Below are positions 32,049 to 41,849 of a DNA stretch of 41,849 nt, piece by piece. Location: positions 1-41,849 of IMG/VR virus record IMGVR_UViG_3300025122_000041. The stretch is one strand, 5' to 3'. The notes under the pieces were generated by a model. That model was given only the letters and a program-made list of their open reading frames with translations, did no database searches and was not told where the DNA came from. The position numbers and the translations under genes are program-made. This DNA is from a virus. Position 1 is the stretch's first letter; every line of letters begins with the position of its first letter.

Positions 32049-35000
32049 ATGGCTGAACAGACTTTTAGATCCCCTGGTTTTTTTCCGCGTGAAGTAGATT
32101 TGGGACTACCGGCAAGAGGTCCTAGCGGAATTCCTGCTGGTGTTGTTGGAACTGCCCTCAGAGGCCCTGCTTTTATTCCAGTGACGGTGGGAAATTTTAA
32201 CGAATTTGATACTGCATTTGGTGGTGTTTCTGCGGATAGATTTGGTGTATTGGCAGTACAGGAATTTTTGCGATACAAACAAAGTTGTACGTTTGTTCGA
32301 GTCTTAGGGGGTGGTTCTAATGATGTAAGCACTGATTTTTTGACCACTGAGAGACTGGGAACAGTGAAGAATGCCGGCTTTAAGCTTGAACCCGCTGGCG
32401 CTCACCAATCTGGCCAGACCCAGGGTGGTCAAATCGAGTATGGAGCAGTACAATTCATTGTGGCAAAGCACTATGTTAGCCAGTCCAAGTCAATACAGTA
32501 CCCAATATTCTCACAGAATGACAGCTTCCAGGGAGATGTCCGTGAGATTCATACCTTAGGTCATAAGTTTAATGACACTACTGGAAAAGTGGTGGCGATA
32601 CTTCGTGCCGTACTATTCACTACATCAGGTTCACTTTTTCGTATAAGAGACTGGAATATAAATCTTCCCGGTCTCACGGAGGACCTCGGGCAGGGGCCAG
32701 ACTATGCCAGTCCCGACGCAACCGACCCCAGGAATGCATTTAAGTTAATTCTATCATCGACTAGTGCAACGTTTGCCCAAACACCTGGCGGACTGAAGGG
32801 CGTTCAAGTGTATAGCGCTTCTCTGGATCCGGATAGTAACAATTATTTGGGAAAGATTCTGAATACTGACCCCCTCAAATTTCAAGAACGTCAGCACTTA
32901 TTATACCTGGATCTTCCCGTCGACAATGATATTGCGCCGGTGTATGACAAAGCTGGATCAATAGGCATACTTTCTGGTTCAACTGAGAAGGCCAATGGCG
33001 CTGCCGGAGCGTCCCTTGAATTTATTGATGCATTTGGCAGGTTTGATACCAGATATAAAACCCCCAGAACCCCATGGATTAAATCACAACCTTTCGGTTC
33101 AAATGAGTATGACCTATTTTATGTTGAGACGTTATCTGACGGTGCATATGCGAATGATAAATTTAAGGTTTCCATCGCAAACCTGAAAGCATCCGCTGAT
33201 AACACATACCCATATGGGACTTTTGAAGTCCAGATTCGTAATTTTGATGATACCGATGTCGATAAAAAGATTATTGAGAGGTATCCCGGGTGCAATCTAG
33301 ACCCACTCAGCAATCAATTTGTTGGGAGGGTCATCGGTGATATGAAGGAGAGCTTCAATTGGGACGGCCGAAATGAAACAGAACGACGAATAGTTGTTAC
33401 TGGACAGTATGCGAATAGATCTCTACGTGTTCGTGTGGTGTTGTCCACTGATCTACAAAAGGGTAATATACCCAGGACATCATTGCCGTTCGGGTTTGGC
33501 GGAATTCCGGTAATAAAGACTAGCGATGCTTTGAGTCATATCGCTTCGTATGTACCGTCGGTTAACCCCGCAGTGGGCCAGCTCGGATACGGTCGTCGTT
33601 TGTGGATGTCAGGTTGTGCGGATAGATACGCCCATACCGGACCCGGGGAATCTGCTCAGTACCACCCGGCACAGACTGCCTCTTTGTTGACCTCTTCAAT
33701 CATGCCTCCGTTACCCCTTCGATTTAAGGTTACCAAGGGAAACACCAAGGCCACCCCGCTCTTTAGTGGACACGCCGGTGCAGAGGAGAGAGTTAGTGCC
33801 GCATATTACTGGGGCGTGCAGAATACACGAATTACCTCCAGCAGGGCAGTGAATGCCAGTCAGGAGTTGAATCCAATTGTAAATGCATACACTAAATTTC
33901 ACGGGATTCAGAAATTGGACATGGTAGTAACCGGTGCAGGAGTGGACGTATTCAATAATAACGCATTTACCCTGTCTCGTGTGGCTTTACACAATGAGCT
34001 TGACGCAGCCGGACATATTTCAGCAATAACCGGTACTGCCAAGGAACATATGTTGGAAGCTGCCTATATTCGAGGCATGGCAAAATTAAATGAAAAGAAT
34101 TACACCGTTATAGATCCAACAGGCAGCAGGAAGACCAGGATCACGCTTGGAACGTTACTTAACTCATCGTCTGTAAAGTTTAATAAGTTTACTGAATTTG
34201 CGAAGTTTACCACCATTTTCTATGGTGGCTTTGACGGATTAAATATCCTCGATCGTGATCAATTTCTCATGAATGATAGGGCCACCTCAACCGCAACTCG
34301 AGGAAAAGCGTCCTCAGATTTCTCAGATCTGGGTCTGTCGACACAACCGGCAGGTACCGGAAAGGATAATAGCATTATTCGTGCATATCGGATGGCCTCA
34401 AAATTGCTCACTAACAAATATTCTAGCAATATTAATATTCTGGCAATTCCAGGCATCAGAGAACAGTATGTGACGGACTACGCCTCGGATAGGACTCGTG
34501 ACTATGGTCTTGCAATATATCTTATGGACCTGGAGATAGTCGATGAAAATCAGACCAGGTTATTCAACAATGAGGGTGATTTTATCCCGGATGTTGATGA
34601 AACGGCGGCAAAGATGGACGGCCGAGGGGTGGATAACAATTTTGTGGCAAGTTATTTCCCGGATGTATTTATCCAGGATCGATCGAGTGGGCAGGTTTTA
34701 TATGCCCCGGCTTCGGTGGCTGCATTACAGGCGGTAGGACAGAATGATAATATAGCAAAACCATGGTTTGCACCGGCAGGATTTAGTCGAGGTGCCCTTG
34801 CTAGTGTAACTAATGTCAAGGTGCGACTAACTGCTGTCGATAGAGACACACTGTATGAGAGTCGAATTAATCCAATTGCGACTTTCCCAAATAGCGGCTT
34901 TGTGATATTCGGACAGAAGACACTACAACTAGCACAATCTGCACTGGACAGAGTTAATGTCAGAAGGATGTTGTTAGATGTTAAAAGAGCAGTAATAGGT

Positions 35001-35261
35001 GTCGCTAGAAGAATACTGTTTGAGCAAAATACACCTGCCACTCGAGCGCGCTTCGTATCACAGGTTACGCCCCTGTTGGCACTAGTACAGGCGCAACAAG
35101 GAATTGACCAGTTTCGTGTTGTGATGGATGATACTAACAATACACAAGACGATGTCCTCAATAATCAATTAAATGGTAAGATTGTTATAGTCCCAACTCG
35201 CGCTGTTGAGTTTATCGCAATTGACTTTATTATTGACCAGGCCGGGGTCACCTTTGTATAA
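32049..35261 (+). CDS. Tail sheath protein, copy 1 (gp18-like)
   Basis: A 1070-residue contractile sheath protein with GGAG before ATG. N-terminus: FRSPGFFPREVDLGLPARG, then GIPAGVVGTALRGPAFIPVT and VLAVQEFLRYKQSCTFVRVL. C-terminal sheath domain: QLAQSALDRVNVRRMLLDV (about residue 960), then RILFEQNTPATRARF and PTRAVEFIAIDFIIDQ. The ends, which form the inner sheath core, are conserved; the middle is much longer than in T4 gp18 (659 residues), so extra surface domains are likely. It contracts to drive the tube through the host envelope. A second sheath gene follows after 30 nt. Confidence 0.93.
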   Translation: MAEQTFRSPGFFPREVDLGLPARGPSGIPAGVVGTALRGPAFIPVTVGNFNEFDTAFGGVSADRFGVLAVQEFLRYKQSCTFVRVLGGGSNDVSTDFLTTERLGTVKNAGFKLEPAGAHQSGQTQGGQIEYGAVQFIVAKHYVSQSKSIQYPIFSQNDSFQGDVREIHTLGHKFNDTTGKVVAILRAVLFTTSGSLFRIRDWNINLPGLTEDLGQGPDYASPDATDPRNAFKLILSSTSATFAQTPGGLKGVQVYSASLDPDSNNYLGKILNTDPLKFQERQHLLYLDLPVDNDIAPVYDKAGSIGILSGSTEKANGAAGASLEFIDAFGRFDTRYKTPRTPWIKSQPFGSNEYDLFYVETLSDGAYANDKFKVSIANLKASADNTYPYGTFEVQIRNFDDTDVDKKIIERYPGCNLDPLSNQFVGRVIGDMKESFNWDGRNETERRIVVTGQYANRSLRVRVVLSTDLQKGNIPRTSLPFGFGGIPVIKTSDALSHIASYVPSVNPAVGQLGYGRRLWMSGCADRYAHTGPGESAQYHPAQTASLLTSSIMPPLPLRFKVTKGNTKATPLFSGHAGAEERVSAAYYWGVQNTRITSSRAVNASQELNPIVNAYTKFHGIQKLDMVVTGAGVDVFNNNAFTLSRVALHNELDAAGHISAITGTAKEHMLEAAYIRGMAKLNEKNYTVIDPTGSRKTRITLGTLLNSSSVKFNKFTEFAKFTTIFYGGFDGLNILDRDQFLMNDRATSTATRGKASSDFSDLGLSTQPAGTGKDNSIIRAYRMASKLLTNKYSSNINILAIPGIREQYVTDYASDRTRDYGLAIYLMDLEIVDENQTRLFNNEGDFIPDVDETAAKMDGRGVDNNFVASYFPDVFIQDRSSGQVLYAPASVAALQAVGQNDNIAKPWFAPAGFSRGALASVTNVKVRLTAVDRDTLYESRINPIATFPNSGFVIFGQKTLQLAQSALDRVNVRRMLLDVKRAVIGVARRILFEQNTPATRARFVSQVTPLLALVQAQQGIDQFRVVMDDTNNTQDDVLNNQLNGKIVIVPTRAVEFIAIDFIIDQAGVTFV

Positions 35262-35291: not shown

Positions 35292-38200
35292 ATGGCTGAA
35301 AATTCACTGAGAGGCGCTGGAGTATTTGCAAAAGAAATAGACGTCTCACAACCTCAAGGGGTATCTCCCAGCGGAATCCCTGCTGCTGTCATTGGTACGG
35401 CGAGAACCGGTCCAGCCTTTGTTCCCATTACCGTAGGAAATATTAGAGAATTTGTTTCGAGATTTGGGGATGTTGATAGCACCAAATTTGGTGCCCTGGC
35501 CCTCCGAGAGTGGCTGGATAATAGAAGTGCAGGTACCTTTGTACGTCTATTAGGGGCCGGTGACGGTAAGAAGAAGACCACCACCGGAAACAACACAGGT
35601 AAGGTGACCAACGCAGGCTTTGTTGTGGGAGGACAACTTCCCCAAGATGACGGAAATTTGGGTGATAATACATATGTGCGTGATAGTGGATGGGGGCAAC
35701 CTGGCCTAGGACGAACATATATTCTGGGATGCTTTATGTCAGAGTCAGCCGCAAGTAGCGACAAGGTTTTCTCCACGGCCGGTATCAGCACGCACAGTAA
35801 AATAAGCATTGCCGAGCGAACTAAACCTATTGTTCGTGGCATCCTGATGGCTCCCTCTGGAGTCCAGCTTTCACTTTCCAGTGCCGTTTACAAGGATAAT
35901 ACATTGGGTGGTGCTGGTCAAGTAGCCGGAGGGCCCAGTGGTGATGTACCAAAGTCAGCTCCAACTTCGAATGATGCTGCACCGGTTAATTCCTTTGTGA
36001 TGTATCTGAATAACTTTAAACAGAGTTCAGCCTACTCTACCATTATTACTGCATCATTTGATCCCCAGTCGGACGGTTATTTTGCCAATCGGCTCAATAG
36101 AGATCCCAGCAAAATTGAAGAGGCTGGTCATCTACTATACTCACATTTCAATATCTACAATGCTCAGGCAGTTATCACCGGCTCGGACTCTCGCCTAACG
36201 CATGCCTCCACCTTTCGGCACGCTCCGACAGAGCTGGCATTTCTTCTAACATCATCGCTGGCCAGGAATGTTGGCACTGCGCTCAGTGCTGGTAGCACTG
36301 CCGGCATTCCAAACTTTGAGGGATTTGAAGACAGATTCCAGCATTCAAAAAGCCCATGGTTTATATCCCAGGATATGGGCAATGGTCCTAAAAATCTTTT
36401 TAAGGTCCATGCCCTTGCGGATGGATCCGGATATAATTCTGCCGTTGACGTTTACAAGGACGACCTGCTACCCAATCAGATAAAGATTAGCATCCAAAAT
36501 ATTATGGCAGTTGCTCCGGTGAACCGGACCCCTGGAAATGAGTATGGCAGCTTTGATCTGATGGTAAGAAAGATTGATGATAGTGATAAAAATCCTGAAA
36601 TTTTTGAAAAGTTCAATAATTTGAGCCTTGATCCCGGGTCTGATAGATACATTGGTCGTATAATTGGCGACATGGAGGTATATTTTGACTTCGACAAGGA
36701 GAAACGCGCTCAAAAAATTGGAGTTAGAGGAAGGTATCCTGTCCGTTCTCAGTATATTCGAGTTGAAATATCCAATGATGTTCAGGAAGGACGGGGATCA
36801 ATTAGTCCAACGGTATTACCGATAGGTTTCCGTGGTCCGGCTCACCTGGTGACATCCGGATCCAGTATTGTACAATCCCGTACCGTTCCAGGCGACGGCG
36901 GCGCAACCCCGGCGTTACAAAATGCAGACACTTTGAGAGAAGTTACTCAGCCTCCGGTACCGTTTAGGTGGCATATAGGTATTGGTGTTGAGGATACGCT
37001 TAACTTTAAACCTGACTTTAATTTCTATTGGGGTGTTCAGTTTACACGAAAATCGATTTTGAATCAGCCAAACCAGGACACAACTTTCGAAGATAGCCTG
37101 TATTCCTGGACCAGGTACTATCCTAGTTTTCAAACTACATGGCAAAATGCTGTGGTAGGTGACAATGCCGGAACTGCTGATCAGGGTGGGACCATATTGG
37201 ACAGTGACGTTTTTGGTAATAATAGATTCACATTGGAGCGAATTCAGGTAGTGACTTCCAGTGTAGAGGGAGCATCTGATGTTGCTAACTTAGCCGAGGC
37301 ACAGGCATTCCGGTATCGACGTAATGCAGTAGTAGGGGCGAATCCAGTAACTCAGTTAACTCTTAAGGATGGTTCAAAACAAATGGGTAGGTTCCTTAAT
37401 GTTGATAAGGACTTTCCCAAGGCTTCAAATGTAACCAAGGCTCTTAAATTCAGCGTTTTTCTGCAGGGTGGTTTTGATGGAGTAAATATTTTTAATCACG
37501 ATAAGATCGCATTCACCGACGCTGCTGTTCGTAGGGAGTATGATGACTCTTCCAACCAGGGAGGAGTTGCATCTGGCCCAACTATTCAGGCCTACAGAAA
37601 GGCGATTGATATCCTTGCCGAACATTCAAATGCTGATATTCAACTGTTAGCCATTCCGGGATTGCGCCACCCATCCGTTACGGATTATGCTCTAGATGCT
37701 ATGGAGGACCGCTTCGATGCAATGTATATCATGGATATCGAAAAGAAGGACAAGAACAATAGTTTTGTTACCGGCTCTACCGCCGTTGCCGACGTCGGAT
37801 ACACAGCCGATCGATTTGCTGCGCGCGGTTTGAATTCATCCTTTGCTGCTGCCTATTTTCCAGACATTATATTGAGAGACCGCGTCGGCGGGACTAGTGT
37901 GGTACCCGCATCGGTTGGAGTTCTGGGTGTTTATGGACTTAACGATGCCCTTGGATTTCCATGGTTTGCCCCTGCGGGATACACCCGCGGTGTAGTTACA
38001 CACGCTCTAAGGAGCACCTTATCTCTTGCAGTAGATGACAATAATGTCCTGGCTTCCACGGACGTTAATCCAATTATTGATGTGGTAGGTCAGGGGACGT
38101 TGGTATACGGTCAGAGAACCCTTTTCAAGGCACAGAGCGCATTAGATCGTATTAATGTGCGTCGATTGCTTATTGACATTAGACGGCGAGTCAAACAAAT

Positions 38201-38459
38201 TGCAAACACAATATTGTTTGAACCAAACCGTGAGGAGACCTTGGCCAGATTCAGTTCGGCAGTTGATCCGGTACTAAGTACCATTCAGCAGCAGCAGGGT
38301 GTCGATCGTTATCGTGTACAGATAGATGCTACAACTACAACCCAGGCAGATATTGAGAATAACACAATTAGAGGAAAGATATTCTTGCAACCGACAAAGT
38401 CAATTGACTTTATTGAGCTTGACTTTGTGGTATCCAACACCATAGATACCGGGGCCTAA
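35292..38459 (+). CDS. Tail sheath protein, copy 2 (gp18-like)
   Basis: A 1055-residue paralogue of the preceding sheath protein with GGGAG before ATG. Matching landmarks: LRGAGVFAKEIDVSQPQG, GIPAAVIGTARTGPAFVPIT and FGALALREWLDNRSAGTFVR at the N-terminus, FKAQSALDRINVRRLLIDI (about residue 946), NTILFEPNREETLARF and PTKSIDFIELDFVVS at the C-terminus. The core domains are clearly related to copy 1 while the middle has diverged strongly, so the duplication is old and both copies are intact. It lies 54 nt before the tail tube gene, as gp18-gp19 in T4. Both may build one mixed sheath, or one may form a specialised end. Confidence 0.93.
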   Translation: MAENSLRGAGVFAKEIDVSQPQGVSPSGIPAAVIGTARTGPAFVPITVGNIREFVSRFGDVDSTKFGALALREWLDNRSAGTFVRLLGAGDGKKKTTTGNNTGKVTNAGFVVGGQLPQDDGNLGDNTYVRDSGWGQPGLGRTYILGCFMSESAASSDKVFSTAGISTHSKISIAERTKPIVRGILMAPSGVQLSLSSAVYKDNTLGGAGQVAGGPSGDVPKSAPTSNDAAPVNSFVMYLNNFKQSSAYSTIITASFDPQSDGYFANRLNRDPSKIEEAGHLLYSHFNIYNAQAVITGSDSRLTHASTFRHAPTELAFLLTSSLARNVGTALSAGSTAGIPNFEGFEDRFQHSKSPWFISQDMGNGPKNLFKVHALADGSGYNSAVDVYKDDLLPNQIKISIQNIMAVAPVNRTPGNEYGSFDLMVRKIDDSDKNPEIFEKFNNLSLDPGSDRYIGRIIGDMEVYFDFDKEKRAQKIGVRGRYPVRSQYIRVEISNDVQEGRGSISPTVLPIGFRGPAHLVTSGSSIVQSRTVPGDGGATPALQNADTLREVTQPPVPFRWHIGIGVEDTLNFKPDFNFYWGVQFTRKSILNQPNQDTTFEDSLYSWTRYYPSFQTTWQNAVVGDNAGTADQGGTILDSDVFGNNRFTLERIQVVTSSVEGASDVANLAEAQAFRYRRNAVVGANPVTQLTLKDGSKQMGRFLNVDKDFPKASNVTKALKFSVFLQGGFDGVNIFNHDKIAFTDAAVRREYDDSSNQGGVASGPTIQAYRKAIDILAEHSNADIQLLAIPGLRHPSVTDYALDAMEDRFDAMYIMDIEKKDKNNSFVTGSTAVADVGYTADRFAARGLNSSFAAAYFPDIILRDRVGGTSVVPASVGVLGVYGLNDALGFPWFAPAGYTRGVVTHALRSTLSLAVDDNNVLASTDVNPIIDVVGQGTLVYGQRTLFKAQSALDRINVRRLLIDIRRRVKQIANTILFEPNREETLARFSSAVDPVLSTIQQQQGVDRYRVQIDATTTTQADIENNTIRGKIFLQPTKSIDFIELDFVVSNTIDTGA

Positions 38460-38513: not shown

Positions 38514-39002
38514 ATGGCAGAGACACTCTCAGTAACGGACATGTTACCGAATAAATTCGAACCGAAAAGAAAATTTCGGTGGGTGTTTGCAATAGAGGGC
38601 ATAGACTCATTTCTGATGAAGACATCAGCACGCCCTACGGTTACAACCACAGAGCAGGAAATTCCGTTCATAAATTCATTCCGTTACATTGCCGGCAAGA
38701 CCAAATTTGAGCAGATCTCACTGACTCTACATGATCCTATTGCACCATCTGGAGCACAACAGGTGATGGAGTGGATTCGGACAGGTTTTGAATCGGTATC
38801 AGGCCGTGCCGGTTATGCTGATTTTTATAAGAGAGATTGCCAGCTTAAGCTTCTGGATCCGGTCGGTACTGTTGTGGAACTATGGGACCTGAAAGGCTGC
38901 ATGCTTGTTACAACTAATTTTAATGATCTGGATTATGGTAGTGAGGACCCGACGGAAATAGCCATAACTATTCGGGCCGATAATATCGTCCTGCAGTTCT
39001 AG
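38514..39002 (+). CDS. Tail tube protein (gp19-like)
   Basis: A 162-residue protein, the same length class as T4 gp19 (163), starting at ATG 38514 with AAGGAG upstream. Typical segments: KRKFRWVFAIEGIDSFLMKT, then ARPTVTTTEQEIPFINSFRY and GKTKFEQISLTLHDPIAPSG, and the end TEIAITIRADNIVLQF. It polymerises inside the sheath as the rigid tube through which DNA passes. It follows the sheath genes and is closed by a terminator 39 nt after its stop, as expected for a highly expressed structural gene. Confidence 0.93.
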   Translation: MAETLSVTDMLPNKFEPKRKFRWVFAIEGIDSFLMKTSARPTVTTTEQEIPFINSFRYIAGKTKFEQISLTLHDPIAPSGAQQVMEWIRTGFESVSGRAGYADFYKRDCQLKLLDPVGTVVELWDLKGCMLVTTNFNDLDYGSEDPTEIAITIRADNIVLQF

Positions 39003-39040
39003 AGTAATAAAATAATTTTATAAAATCTAATTTTATTAGA

Positions 39041-39069
39041 AAAGCCCACTTCGGTGGGCTTTTTTTTTA
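39041..39069 (+). terminator. Intrinsic terminator after tail tube, TTCG loop
   Basis: A perfect 9-bp stem (39041-39049, AAAGCCCAC; 39054-39062, GTGGGCTTT) with TTCG loop and a run of T to 39068. It separates the highly expressed tube gene from the hub/tape-measure genes. Confidence 0.93.
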
Positions 39070-39143: not shown

Positions 39144-40004
39144 ATGACAAAAAATGATGATAGAGCGTTCAGGAACGAAGTATTCACAGCAGCCCAAGCT
39201 CAGCAACAAGGCATTCCAACACGTAACGTGATGAGGGATGACTTTGATATTGAAATTCCGGTTGAGAGTGTTCCCTTGCCCTCCTCAGGGGTGGCATATC
39301 CTGTTGACAGCCCACTTCATGGACAGGAAACGATTGAAGTGACGGCAATGACAGCTAAGGAAGAAGATATATTAACGTCTAGGGCACTAATCAAAAAAGG
39401 TTCTGTTATTACTGAACTTCTTCGTTCCTGTATAGTAAACAAGAATGTTAATCCAAATACGATGCTTTCTGGTGATAGAAATGCTCTAATGACTGCGATT
39501 CGAATTACGGGGTATGGATCAGATTATACTGTTGAAGTTGACTGCCCGGCATGCAGTGAGAGATCCAAACAGACATTTGATCTTACTGAACTTCCAATTA
39601 AGAGGCTTGAAATTTCTCCGGTGCAGCTGGGTGACAATATTTTTGAAACTGAGTTACCACTAACAAAGAAAAAGGTTCAATTTAAGTTTTTAACCGGTGA
39701 GGATGAGCGTGAGATGTCGGTGGTGAGTGATAGAAGAAAGAAGAGTGGAATGATTAGAGACACCATGGTTACCCAGAGATTCCAACAACAGCTAGTTTCT
39801 GTTAATGGCATTACCGATAGGTCTAAGATTAACACTTTTATTGGACATATGCCTGCTGGAGATTCGCTTTATCTCAGAAAATATATTGATCGGCATGAAC
39901 CCGGGGTCGATATGAAGTCATGGATGGACTGCGCACAGTGTTTTGAGAGCTCGGAGGTGCGCCTTCCGATGGGCGCCTCGTTTTTTTGGCCTGACCTCGA
40001 GTGA
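39144..40004 (+). CDS. Baseplate hub protein, gp26-like, zinc-binding
   Basis: I choose ATG 39144 (286 residues); the frame is open back to 39054, but that start lies inside the terminator. Core motif: AKEEDILTSRALIKKGSVIT, ELLRSCIVNKNVNP, RNALMTAIRITGYGSDYTVE, then CPAC (Cys134, Cys137) and, near the end, CAQC (Cys263, Cys266), which together suit one zinc site. This is the pattern of the T4 gp26 baseplate-hub family, involved in hub and tail-length assembly around the tape measure. It ends GASFFWPDLE on a TGA that overlaps another ORF in the +1 frame, across a run of seven T (39981-39987). The Shine-Dalgarno site is weak. Confidence 0.75.
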   Translation: MTKNDDRAFRNEVFTAAQAQQQGIPTRNVMRDDFDIEIPVESVPLPSSGVAYPVDSPLHGQETIEVTAMTAKEEDILTSRALIKKGSVITELLRSCIVNKNVNPNTMLSGDRNALMTAIRITGYGSDYTVEVDCPACSERSKQTFDLTELPIKRLEISPVQLGDNIFETELPLTKKKVQFKFLTGEDEREMSVVSDRRKKSGMIRDTMVTQRFQQQLVSVNGITDRSKINTFIGHMPAGDSLYLRKYIDRHEPGVDMKSWMDCAQCFESSEVRLPMGASFFWPDLE

Positions 40005-40242
40005 TAAAGAAATATTCCTTGAGCCAATTTTTGCGTTGATGTATTACATGGGCTTCACCTACAGTGAGGCATATGCATTACCGGTTTGGCAGAGGATGTG
40101 GTTTATCACGCGGCTACAGAAGGAATTAAAGGGCGCTAATGGAGAGACGTCACGAGCAGCTCACGACAATGACCCGACCCAACGTGCTCTAGCTGGTAGG
40201 CATAATCCGGGCGCGCCGGCTAGATTGAGAAGATTCACCTAG
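39943..40242 (+). CDS. gp51-like downstream ORF, start uncertain (possible frameshift product)
   Basis: A 99-codon frame, overlapping the gp26-like gene in the +1 frame. The part that looks protein-like begins at the upstream stop: SDKEIFLEPIFALMYYMGFT, then YSEAYALPVWQRMWFITRLQ, which resembles small T4-type hub-assembly proteins (gp51 class) downstream of gp26. Residues before that are a shadow of the other gene. The only early start is TTG 39943 without a ribosome site; ATG 40039 and 40048 also lack one and would remove part of the conserved stretch. A +1 shift on TTT-T at 39984-39987 would join it to the gp26-like protein. The C-terminus is polar (ASRAAHDND-like, HNPGAPARLRRF). Confidence 0.55.
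   Translation: MRARRCAFRWAPRFFGLTSSDKEIFLEPIFALMYYMGFTYSEAYALPVWQRMWFITRLQKELKGANGETSRAAHDNDPTQRALAGRHNPGAPARLRRFT
39981..39987 (+). other. Possible +1 frameshift site (T7 run)
   Basis: In the gp26-like frame the run reads TTT TTT TGG, 17 nt before the stop. Phe-tRNA slipping from TTT to the overlapping TTT one base on would enter the downstream frame at GGC CTG ACC. No start codon with a ribosome site serves the downstream ORF. A homopolymer sequencing error would give the same picture. Confidence 0.35.
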
Positions 40243-40260
40243 GGACTGATAGTTATTATA

Positions 40261-40527
40261 ATGAAAAGAAAATCAGATAATGTAGGTGGCAATCAATTGC
40301 GTGGGCTTTTCGCCCGGGCCATTATGGACGAGAATATCTCTATTGACGTGAAAGGCACTTCTACTCATGCTCAGGTGACCCGGGTGGTTCTGGAGGCATC
40401 TAGATATCTTTTTCATACTCTGCATAGAGAGGACGCGTCACTTGAAGATCTTCAGGAAGCGCTTGATCGAAAACACCATGCCGCTACTCATTATCAAAAA
40501 ATATTTGATGCCAATTGGTATTTCTAA
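40261..40527 (+). CDS. Small protein before tape measure, unknown function
   Basis: An 88-residue, mostly helical protein starting at ATG 40261 (QLRGLFARAIMDENISIDV, then VVLEASRYLFHTLHRED and LEDLQEALDRKHHAATHYQ). No domain, membrane segment or zinc motif. It sits between the gp26/gp51-like genes and the tape measure candidate, the position where small tail-assembly chaperones occur, but no family could be recognised. The Shine-Dalgarno site is weak. Confidence 0.6.
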   Translation: MKRKSDNVGGNQLRGLFARAIMDENISIDVKGTSTHAQVTRVVLEASRYLFHTLHREDASLEDLQEALDRKHHAATHYQKIFDANWYF

Positions 40528-40574: not shown

Positions 40575-41849
40575 ATGCCAAATGGAGATCTTGGCGAGCA
40601 GGTCACACTTCAGAGAGAGATTAATAAGCTCCTTCAGGAAAGGCAGCGTCTTCTGAAGCGTAATCAAACGTTGTCACAAAAGCTTTGTGATGCAGCCAAG
40701 TGTGCTCAGGAAGCACAGCAGGGGGCTGCAGGTGCAAGTCGTGAGATGACCAACAGCCTGCGACAAAGTTTGGACCCGGCTGATGAATTGTCAGAGTCGT
40801 TTGAGGATATAGCTGACAGCGCCGATAATGCTCGTGGAGGAATAGGGGGTGCATTGTCGGGTCTGATGTCGAGTGGCTGGGCCAAAGGTGCTGCAATTAT
40901 CGGTGGCCTGGGTTCCGTCTTTATGAAGGTGACCGGACTTATCGGCGGATTTATTGACATAATGGCTTCGGCCGTAAAGGGAATATTCAGTATAGGCGTA
41001 TCGATACTTATGTTACCGGTTAAATTTCTTACCGGCCTGATAAAACATGCCGGTAATTTAACGGGGGGGTCTACTGCTCTGAGAGAGGCCTGGGAGGATA
41101 TACGTGAGGTCTGGGGTGACACAGCCTCAAATGAAGGCAAGGCGGTTCGGTTGAATATGCGCAAGATGCGCTCGGAATTCAATAAGACAGCCAGCGCTGG
41201 TGCTTCCTTTCGGAGGGTCTTCGGCTTCGGCCCAGAGGGAATGGGCAAGGCCCAAAAGGAGGTCCTGGAGCTGTCTCAGGCCCTAGGGACGGCATTTCAT
41301 CATCTATCGAAGACCATGAATGAGGAGACCTGGGCCGCTACGGTGAAGTTGCGCCGTGGACTGGGACTGACCATGGAGAGTTTCGGAGCGATTGGAAAAC
41401 ACGCCGCTTCAATGCGCAAGGACCTGAATCAGGAACTCGAGGACATTGCTAAGATGTCGATACATATGTCCAAAGTGTCCGGAATATCCGCGAAGGCAAT
41501 CAGTAGGGACTACGGTGAGATGGCGGCTGATGTTGCGAATTATGGTCACATGGATATGAAGGCGAAGATGTCGGTCATCACCTGGTCCAAGAGGATGGGA
41601 ATTGAGATGAAAGCGCTAAGCGCCGTCCAAGAGAGATTCCTGAATTTTGATAGTGCGGCTGAATCTGCAGCCAATATGGCTCAAGCCTTTGGGGCGAATG
41701 TCGACGTGATGAAACTGGTCACTGCCGAGAACCCCGCGGACCAGATAGAGGAGTTACGCAGGGCTCTCTTCGCCACCGGAAGAAGTGTTGAAGATATGAC
41801 ATTGGCCGAGCGTAGGATGCTTGAACAGGCTAGCGAACTCAAGGGTGAT
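40575..41849 (+). CDS. Tape measure-like tail protein, 3'-partial
   Basis: An open frame from ATG 40575 (AAGGGCGG upstream) to the window end, 425 codons with no stop. It begins with a coiled-coil helix (LQREINKLLQERQRLLKRNQ), then a Gly-rich hydrophobic part at about residues 100-160 (WAKGAAIIGGLGSVFM, GLIGGFIDIMASAVKG, GVSILMLPVKFLTGLI), then long helical repeats (LNMRKMRSEFNKT, LNQELEDIAKMSIHM, IEELRRALFATGRSVEDM). Long helices plus internal hydrophobic segments are typical of tape measure proteins, which set tail length and enter the host membrane. Codon use is more GC-rich than in the upstream small genes. The position after hub/chaperone genes supports the call; another large tail protein is possible. 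Confidence 0.65.
   Translation, partial: MPNGDLGEQVTLQREINKLLQERQRLLKRNQTLSQKLCDAAKCAQEAQQGAAGASREMTNSLRQSLDPADELSESFEDIADSADNARGGIGGALSGLMSSGWAKGAAIIGGLGSVFMKVTGLIGGFIDIMASAVKGIFSIGVSILMLPVKFLTGLIKHAGNLTGGSTALREAWEDIREVWGDTASNEGKAVRLNMRKMRSEFNKTASAGASFRRVFGFGPEGMGKAQKEVLELSQALGTAFHHLSKTMNEETWAATVKLRRGLGLTMESFGAIGKHAASMRKDLNQELEDIAKMSIHMSKVSGISAKAISRDYGEMAADVANYGHMDMKAKMSVITWSKRMGIEMKALSAVQERFLNFDSAAESAANMAQAFGANVDVMKLVTAENPADQIEELRRALFATGRSVEDMTLAERRMLEQASELKGD

Follow-up and report, generated by a model that had tools for sequence, protein, structure and literature searches.

In the viral contig analysed here, a gene for a short tail assembly chaperone is overlapped at its 3′-end by a protein-like sequence in the +1 frame. 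The question raised by this locus is whether there are two genes, one gene broken by an error, or one gene from which two chaperones are made and, in the last case, by what means the frame is changed. The window, the whole stretch of DNA analysed, is a 41.8 kb fragment of a contig of a T4-superfamily myophage, with Pfam matches to a gp17-like terminase, gp20 portal, gp21 protease, gp23 capsid and sheath proteins. The features of the region are as follows.

38514..39002, + strand: tail tube gene (gp19-like; PHROG 4542 tail tube protein, E 6e-27)
39144..40004, + strand: short tail assembly chaperone (TAC-N, T4 gp26-like, PF12322) in frame 0; ATG start, 286 aa, stop TGA at 40002-40004
39953..39957, + strand: Shine-Dalgarno (SD)-like GGAGG upstream of the proposed shift site, in excess over synonymous shuffles
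39959..39976, + strand: RNA hairpin predicted by folding between the GGAGG and the T-run, 39959-39964 paired with 39971-39976
39981..39990, + strand: proposed shift site TTT TTT T GGC, T7 at 39981-39987; P-site codon 39984-39986, skipped T 39987, frame-0 A-site TGG 39987-39989, +1 codon GGC 39988-39990
39988..40242, + strand: +1-frame C-terminal domain of the putative long isoform, 84 aa, mostly helical; stop TAG at 40240-40242
40261..40527, + strand: small ORF of 88 aa from the ORF listing, located after the chaperone gene and before the tape measure position
40575..41849, + strand: likely tape measure gene, assigned by position and length and cut by the end of the window

The order of tail tube gene, chaperone gene and tape measure position is common to the window and its annotated relatives, and places the locus between the tail tube and tape measure genes, as a frameshift of the lambda G/GT type requires. 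The ORF at 40575-41849 has no family match of its own, and a tape measure protein is annotated at the equivalent position in relatives. The small ORF at 40261-40527 has no family match in Pfam- and PHROG-type searches; in Microcystis phage Mel-JY01, a small ORF likewise lies between the chaperone gene and the tape measure position. Between the tail tube and chaperone genes (39040-39069) there is an intrinsic-terminator-like hairpin with a T run (aaaagcccacttcggtgggctttttttt), and a terminator is annotated at the equivalent place in phage SP-15.

The frame-0 gene ends TCG TTT TTT TGG CCT GAC CTC GAG TGA, and the +1 frame is open throughout the overlap, reading GGC CTG ACC TCG AGT GAT AAA and onward to the TAG, so that the joined protein would read SFF|GLTSSDKEIF. 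The original prediction, that a gp26-like gene is overlapped in the +1 frame across TTTTTTT, is thus borne out. The protein-like +1 sequence that it described is also present, and begins at 39988 rather than at 39943, where a TTG is the mechanical first start-like codon. A single copy of TTTTTTTGGCC is present in the 41.8 kb window, versus 0.04 expected.

Relatives were collected by searching separately with the short protein and with the +1 domain, and these independent queries identified ~80 IMG/VR loci each; with the +1 domain as the sole query, its conservation was seen in 78 loci, with identities of up to 74%. Both parts are present in 152 IMG/VR loci, a set that includes the window and the window's own copy, and in 151 of these the +1 frame holds the second part. 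The sole exception, L155, has a normal TTT TTT TGG junction and a further frame break downstream. All but two of the distinct junctions conform to TTY-YTT-T-GGY: TTTTTTTGGC (TTT TTT T GGC) is found in 116, TTTCTTTGGC (TTT CTT T GGC) in 8 and TTCTTTTGGC (TTC TTT T GGC) in 4, and the remainder comprise two that have GGT and two irregular loci, L155 and L159, of which L159 has an altered junction. In all 132 distinct regular loci, frame 0 stops three to six codons past the site. The length of the T-run is kept at seven, with a T as the preceding base in only 1 of the 132. Of these loci, 130 have GGC as their first +1 codon, and GGC accounts for 23% of the glycine codons elsewhere in the gene. Comparison of the junction across relatives had been set beforehand as a test of the frameshift, and both the T-run and the overlap proved to be conserved. 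Searches of cellular genomes gave 14 matches, all in metagenome bins and probably on phage contigs, with the +1 extension present at all 13 of the junctions read. As separate observations, the further break in L155 (5960-6020) lies ~18 codons into the +1 domain and is either an error or marks a pseudogene, and the contigs of this phage group that were binned in genomes labelled Flavobacteriales, Methylococcaceae, Halobacteriovorax and Woesearchaeota (L180-L193) are likely binning errors.

The short protein matches PF12322 with 55.8 bits, above the cut-off of 24.5, and also matches PHROG 150 (baseplate hub). Its AlphaFold model (pLDDT 87.8) matches the predicted hub protein of SP-15 and T4-like hub assembly proteins, and the model of the +1 domain has helices at residues 4-21, 25-30 and 33-52. 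In T4, PF12322 extends over the whole length of gp26 and over residues 1-201 of gp51, which has ~48 further residues. The profile of the +1 domain aligns with a profile of T4 gp51 C-termini plus cyanophage extensions with an hhalign probability of 95.2 (E 2.9e-8); against the T4-group extensions alone the match is weak (6.8%), and the homology became clear only because the cyanophage extensions bridged the gap. With a frame-0 product in PF12322 and a +1 domain homologous to the C-terminus of gp51, the reading favoured from these sequence comparisons is that one gene encodes both isoforms, the frame-0 product being a short, gp26-like, and the shifted product a long, gp51-like, tail assembly chaperone. 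The second part had been labelled gp51-like and the locus read as a joining of gp26-like and gp51-like proteins. The frameshift itself is supported; the homology to gp51 holds for its C-terminal end only, which excludes the second part being a whole gp51, and the products are better described as short and long isoforms of one chaperone. The two genes that provide the short and long forms in T4 have no counterpart in the window, where, in this fragment of a contig, there is one overlapping pair. The identification of gp26 and gp51 as tail assembly chaperones is credited in PMC10885494 and PMC12846349 to Vladimirov, Gautam and Davidson (2022, Virology 566:9-15). A fold search with the 84-aa domain gave nothing significant, nor did a PDB search with the N domain, in which the HK97 chaperone 2ob9 was fifth at E 2.5. 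Membership in DUF6760 (PF20546) was rejected, as the matches (E 0.024 and 0.17) were weak and below the cut-off.

Outside the IMG/VR set, the isolates Microcystis phage Mel-JY01 and Flavobacterium phage immuto have the site TTT TTT T GG or TTT CTT T GG. A +1 extension is present at other sites in Bacillus phage SP-15 (TTT TTT CAC), Listeria phage LIS04, Streptococcus phage GXN1 (TTC TTT CGT), Streptomyces phages BRock (CTG TTT CGC) and LuckySocke (CTG TTT CAG) and huge phage LR756508 (TTT CTA); none of the five sites given here has a T7. A further group has the extension in the -1 frame, with T TTT TTC or T TTT TTT as the site: Agrobacterium phage Atu_ph07, PA5oct, Sinorhizobium phage phiM12 (L205), Delftia phage phiW-14 (L207) and the cyanophages P-SSM2 (L201) and S-PM2 (L202). 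In P-SSM2 and S-PM2, there is also an ATG just past the stop codon. A scan of twelve records for PF12322 identified two matches in each of T4 and Campylobacter phage NCTC12673 and one in each of the other ten; the gp26 and gp51 genes of T4 are separate and on opposite strands. With +1, -1 and two-gene arrangements all found within the family, the pair of isoforms seems, from these gene arrangements, to have been kept while the means of making it changed: one gene with a +1 shift here, apparently a -1 shift in others, and two genes in T4. In one marine locus, L066 (3435-3560), a -1 extension lies beside the heptamer A AAT TTC, for which a local indel is an alternative explanation.

Two RNA elements precede the site. 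Of 110 representatives, 89 have a GGAGG in the 60 nt that precede the site, versus a mean of 15.6 and a maximum of 28 in synonymous shuffles, and 84 have a hairpin of -4 kcal/mol or lower whose end is no more than 3 nt from the site, versus a mean of 34 and a maximum of 47 in shuffles, counts that come from loci related by descent rather than from independent events, with shuffles that control for protein sequence and not for ancestry. Other windows of the same genes contain GGAGG in 23 of 1182 cases, and control sites have such a hairpin in 10%. The first G of the GGAGG lies at -34 from the skipped base in one clade and at -28 in another, and so the motif occupies different amino acid positions; it lies 20-26 nt upstream of the P-site codon. 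The hairpin between the GGAGG and the site averages -8.0 kcal/mol in the -34 clade, versus -3.5 in shuffles, and -4.7 in the -28 clade, versus -0.8. The elements follow one another in the same way in outgroups whose spacing differs: in Mel-JY01, a gap of ~31 nt from the GGAGG is filled by a hairpin of -10 kcal/mol, and the order in LR756508 is GGAGG-TGATG-CGCATCCcgttGGATGCG-AAC-TTT CTA. The GGAGG and the hairpin are under selection at the RNA level. As GGAGG or GAGGT and a hairpin are kept in several of the +1 relatives that lack the T7, these elements go with +1 shifting and not with the T7. The GGAGG is absent from about one-fifth of the representatives, and from LIS04, GXN1 and L187. SD cores precede roughly half of the genes, which makes the use of SD sequences by the host ribosome probable. 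A strong downstream stimulator was considered and set aside, as downstream structure shows only a modest excess (mean -6.3 versus -4.5 kcal/mol in synonymous shuffles), and a search of Rfam gave nothing above gathering at the shift site.

We consider it likely that both chaperones are made from the one gene by ribosomal +1 slippage, aided by the SD-like GGAGG bridged to the site by the hairpin. Most ribosomes would then remain in frame 0, add five further residues (WPDLE) and terminate, releasing the short gp26-like chaperone. In a minority, a proportion that is itself presumed, peptidyl-tRNA-Phe would occupy the P site at YUU (tRNA-Leu on the CUU variants) with the Trp codon UGG in the A site, its decoding assumed to be slow, and the tRNA would slip one base forward onto UUU, making GGC the next codon and adding 84 residues to give the long isoform equivalent to gp51. 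The GGAGG would pair with the 16S rRNA and the hairpin would shorten the path between them, allowing a distant SD-like element to push the ribosome forward as in prfB. By analogy with lambda gpG and gpGT, the tape measure protein may be coated by the short form, with the extension serving to recruit subunits of the tail tube or hub. In the TTT CTT T and TTC TTT T variants, the YUU-U is kept while the T-run is broken, and distant relatives shift at UUU_C; it is for these reasons that the ribosome is favoured as the slipping agent. The CUU_UGG_C variant resembles two +1 sites quoted in PMC5009743, CUU_UGA_C of prfB and CUU_AGG_C of Ty1. The SD spacings known are 3 nt for +1 and 9-14 nt for -1 shifts (PMC5009743), and the GGAGG, at 20-26 nt, fits neither. 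That it might represent a new type of stimulator, in which an SD-like element at a varying distance (~17 to 32 nt from the slippery hexamer) drives a +1 shift through a bridging hairpin, is a suggestion that we make tentatively and would rate as somewhat doubtful. If correct, a hairpin-delivered anti-SD interaction would be common to marine T4-like, Streptomyces and huge phages.

In the main alternative, the frame would instead be changed during transcription, if the hairpin beside the U7 caused RNA polymerase to skip one base and the resulting U6 mRNA directed synthesis of the long form. Deletion of one base gives exactly the right frame, the hairpin adjoins the T-run in the proportion of representatives given above with a terminator-like geometry, and loss of one base at T5C5 in a Roseiflexus IS system requires an adjacent stem-loop (PMC5009743). 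The same geometry argues against the ribosomal model, as a hairpin in contact with the T-run would be unwound within a ribosome paused there, and its position suits RNA polymerase. Such slippage is nevertheless unlikely: TTTCTTT and TTCTTTT variants exist, with L032 and L036 having hairpins of -10.8 kcal/mol, distant relatives with UUU_C or UUU_CUA have GGAGG or GAGGT and a hairpin and no T-run, no role of GGAGG for RNA polymerase is known, and efficient homopolymer slippage has been shown with runs of nine (PMC5009743), whereas the run here is held at seven. A -2 ribosomal shift on the U7, which would add one extra residue, reaches the identical frame and is used by phage Mu (PMC5009743). It would, however, leave tRNA-Phe mismatched with UCU in the TTC TTT T loci or with GUU in the CTG TTT C loci, where re-pairing after a +1 shift is good, and is very improbable.

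The probability that the second ORF is a separate gene, one that yields no fusion protein and is translated after re-initiation or from a start in the overlap, is marginally lower still. The upstream GGAGG could serve initiation, and a TTG or GTG falls within the overlap in some loci, but from the upstream in-frame stop to codon 10 of the domain, 59 of the 132 distinct loci have no ATG, GTG or TTG; an ATG is available in the +1 stretch in only 30, and the start-like codons are at differing places. This agrees with the prediction that the second part lacks a usable start, and the relatives share no clear ATG preceded by a ribosome site; moreover, the equivalent domain is fused in frame in T4. 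Although homopolymers are error-prone, a sequencing or assembly indel in one continuous gene is ruled out for practical purposes by the +1 relation in all but one of the 152 loci and in the isolates Mel-JY01, immuto and SP-15, by the near-invariant junction and by the loci without a start codon, and a continuous gene with six Ts is found in no relative.

Frameshifted tail chaperones are classical, and for lambda gpG and gpGT and their relatives Xu, Hendrix and Duda reportedly described the shift in 2004. Ribosomal +1 slippage at the locus described here would share with lambda the position just upstream of the tape measure gene and the same outcome. Lambda, in contrast, shifts -1, no sequence homology was found, and the fold match to HK97 2ob9 is not significant. 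With T4, the locus shares the PF12322 N-terminal part, an extension homologous to the gp51 C-terminus and the logic of short and long isoforms, but one gene with a +1 shift would replace two genes on opposite strands. The T4-like -1 genes of P-SSM2, S-PM2, phiM12 and phiW-14 are closer, each being one gene with a homologous out-of-frame extension and a poly-T site near the end of the short form, and differ in shifting -1 at U UUU UUC/U and, in the cyanophages, in the ATG just after the stop. The prfB and Ty1 sites, whose A-site codon is a slow one or a stop, also have a YUU in the P site that slips to UUU or UUA and a good +1 codon (GAC, GGC); here, unlike in those systems, the SD-like element is 20-26 nt away with a hairpin between, rather than 3 nt, and the A-site UGG is an ordinary sense codon. 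Transcriptional slippage in the Roseiflexus IS630 (Penno et al. 2015) likewise has a hairpin directly upstream of a T-containing run and loses one base, whereas here the outcome persists in relatives whose run is interrupted or missing, and a GGAGG is conserved.

T4 has been stated to be the exception to tail chaperone frameshifting (PMC5009743). As PMC12846349 cites Vladimirov et al. for -1 poly-T sites in T4-like chaperone genes, the -1 type, to judge from that citation, has probably been reported already. Cases of +1 shifting are known in other phage genes and tails, in Listeria PSA and HSTV-2 (PMC5009743). The literature search, to which the full text of Vladimirov et al. 2022 was external, found neither a broadly conserved T4-family +1 version nor the arrangement of SD-like element, hairpin and site. 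These two features are apparently new; frameshifted tail chaperones are known, and T4-type chaperones and -1 poly-T sites have apparently been described. A +1 shift in a T4-like phage had been expected to be unusual; frameshifting as such, given the -1 cases, is not foreign to these phages. With its many natural variants in marine metagenomes, the site offers a ready system for the study of efficient bacterial +1 shifts that do not involve a stop codon, and of whether the effect of an SD-like element can be transmitted by a hairpin.

A conserved frameshift also explains a common gap in annotation. The out-of-frame extension is unannotated, or truncated to a false small ORF, in the GenBank records of several phages, among them immuto (L161, 6726-6989), LIS04 (L165, 5711-5942), SP-15 (L167, 5675-5894) and GXN1 (L164, 5732 onward). 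Elsewhere in the window, two adjacent and very large genes at 32049-35261 and 35292-38459 (1070 and 1055 aa) each match tail sheath families and constitute a pair of tandem sheath paralogues with long N-terminal additions.
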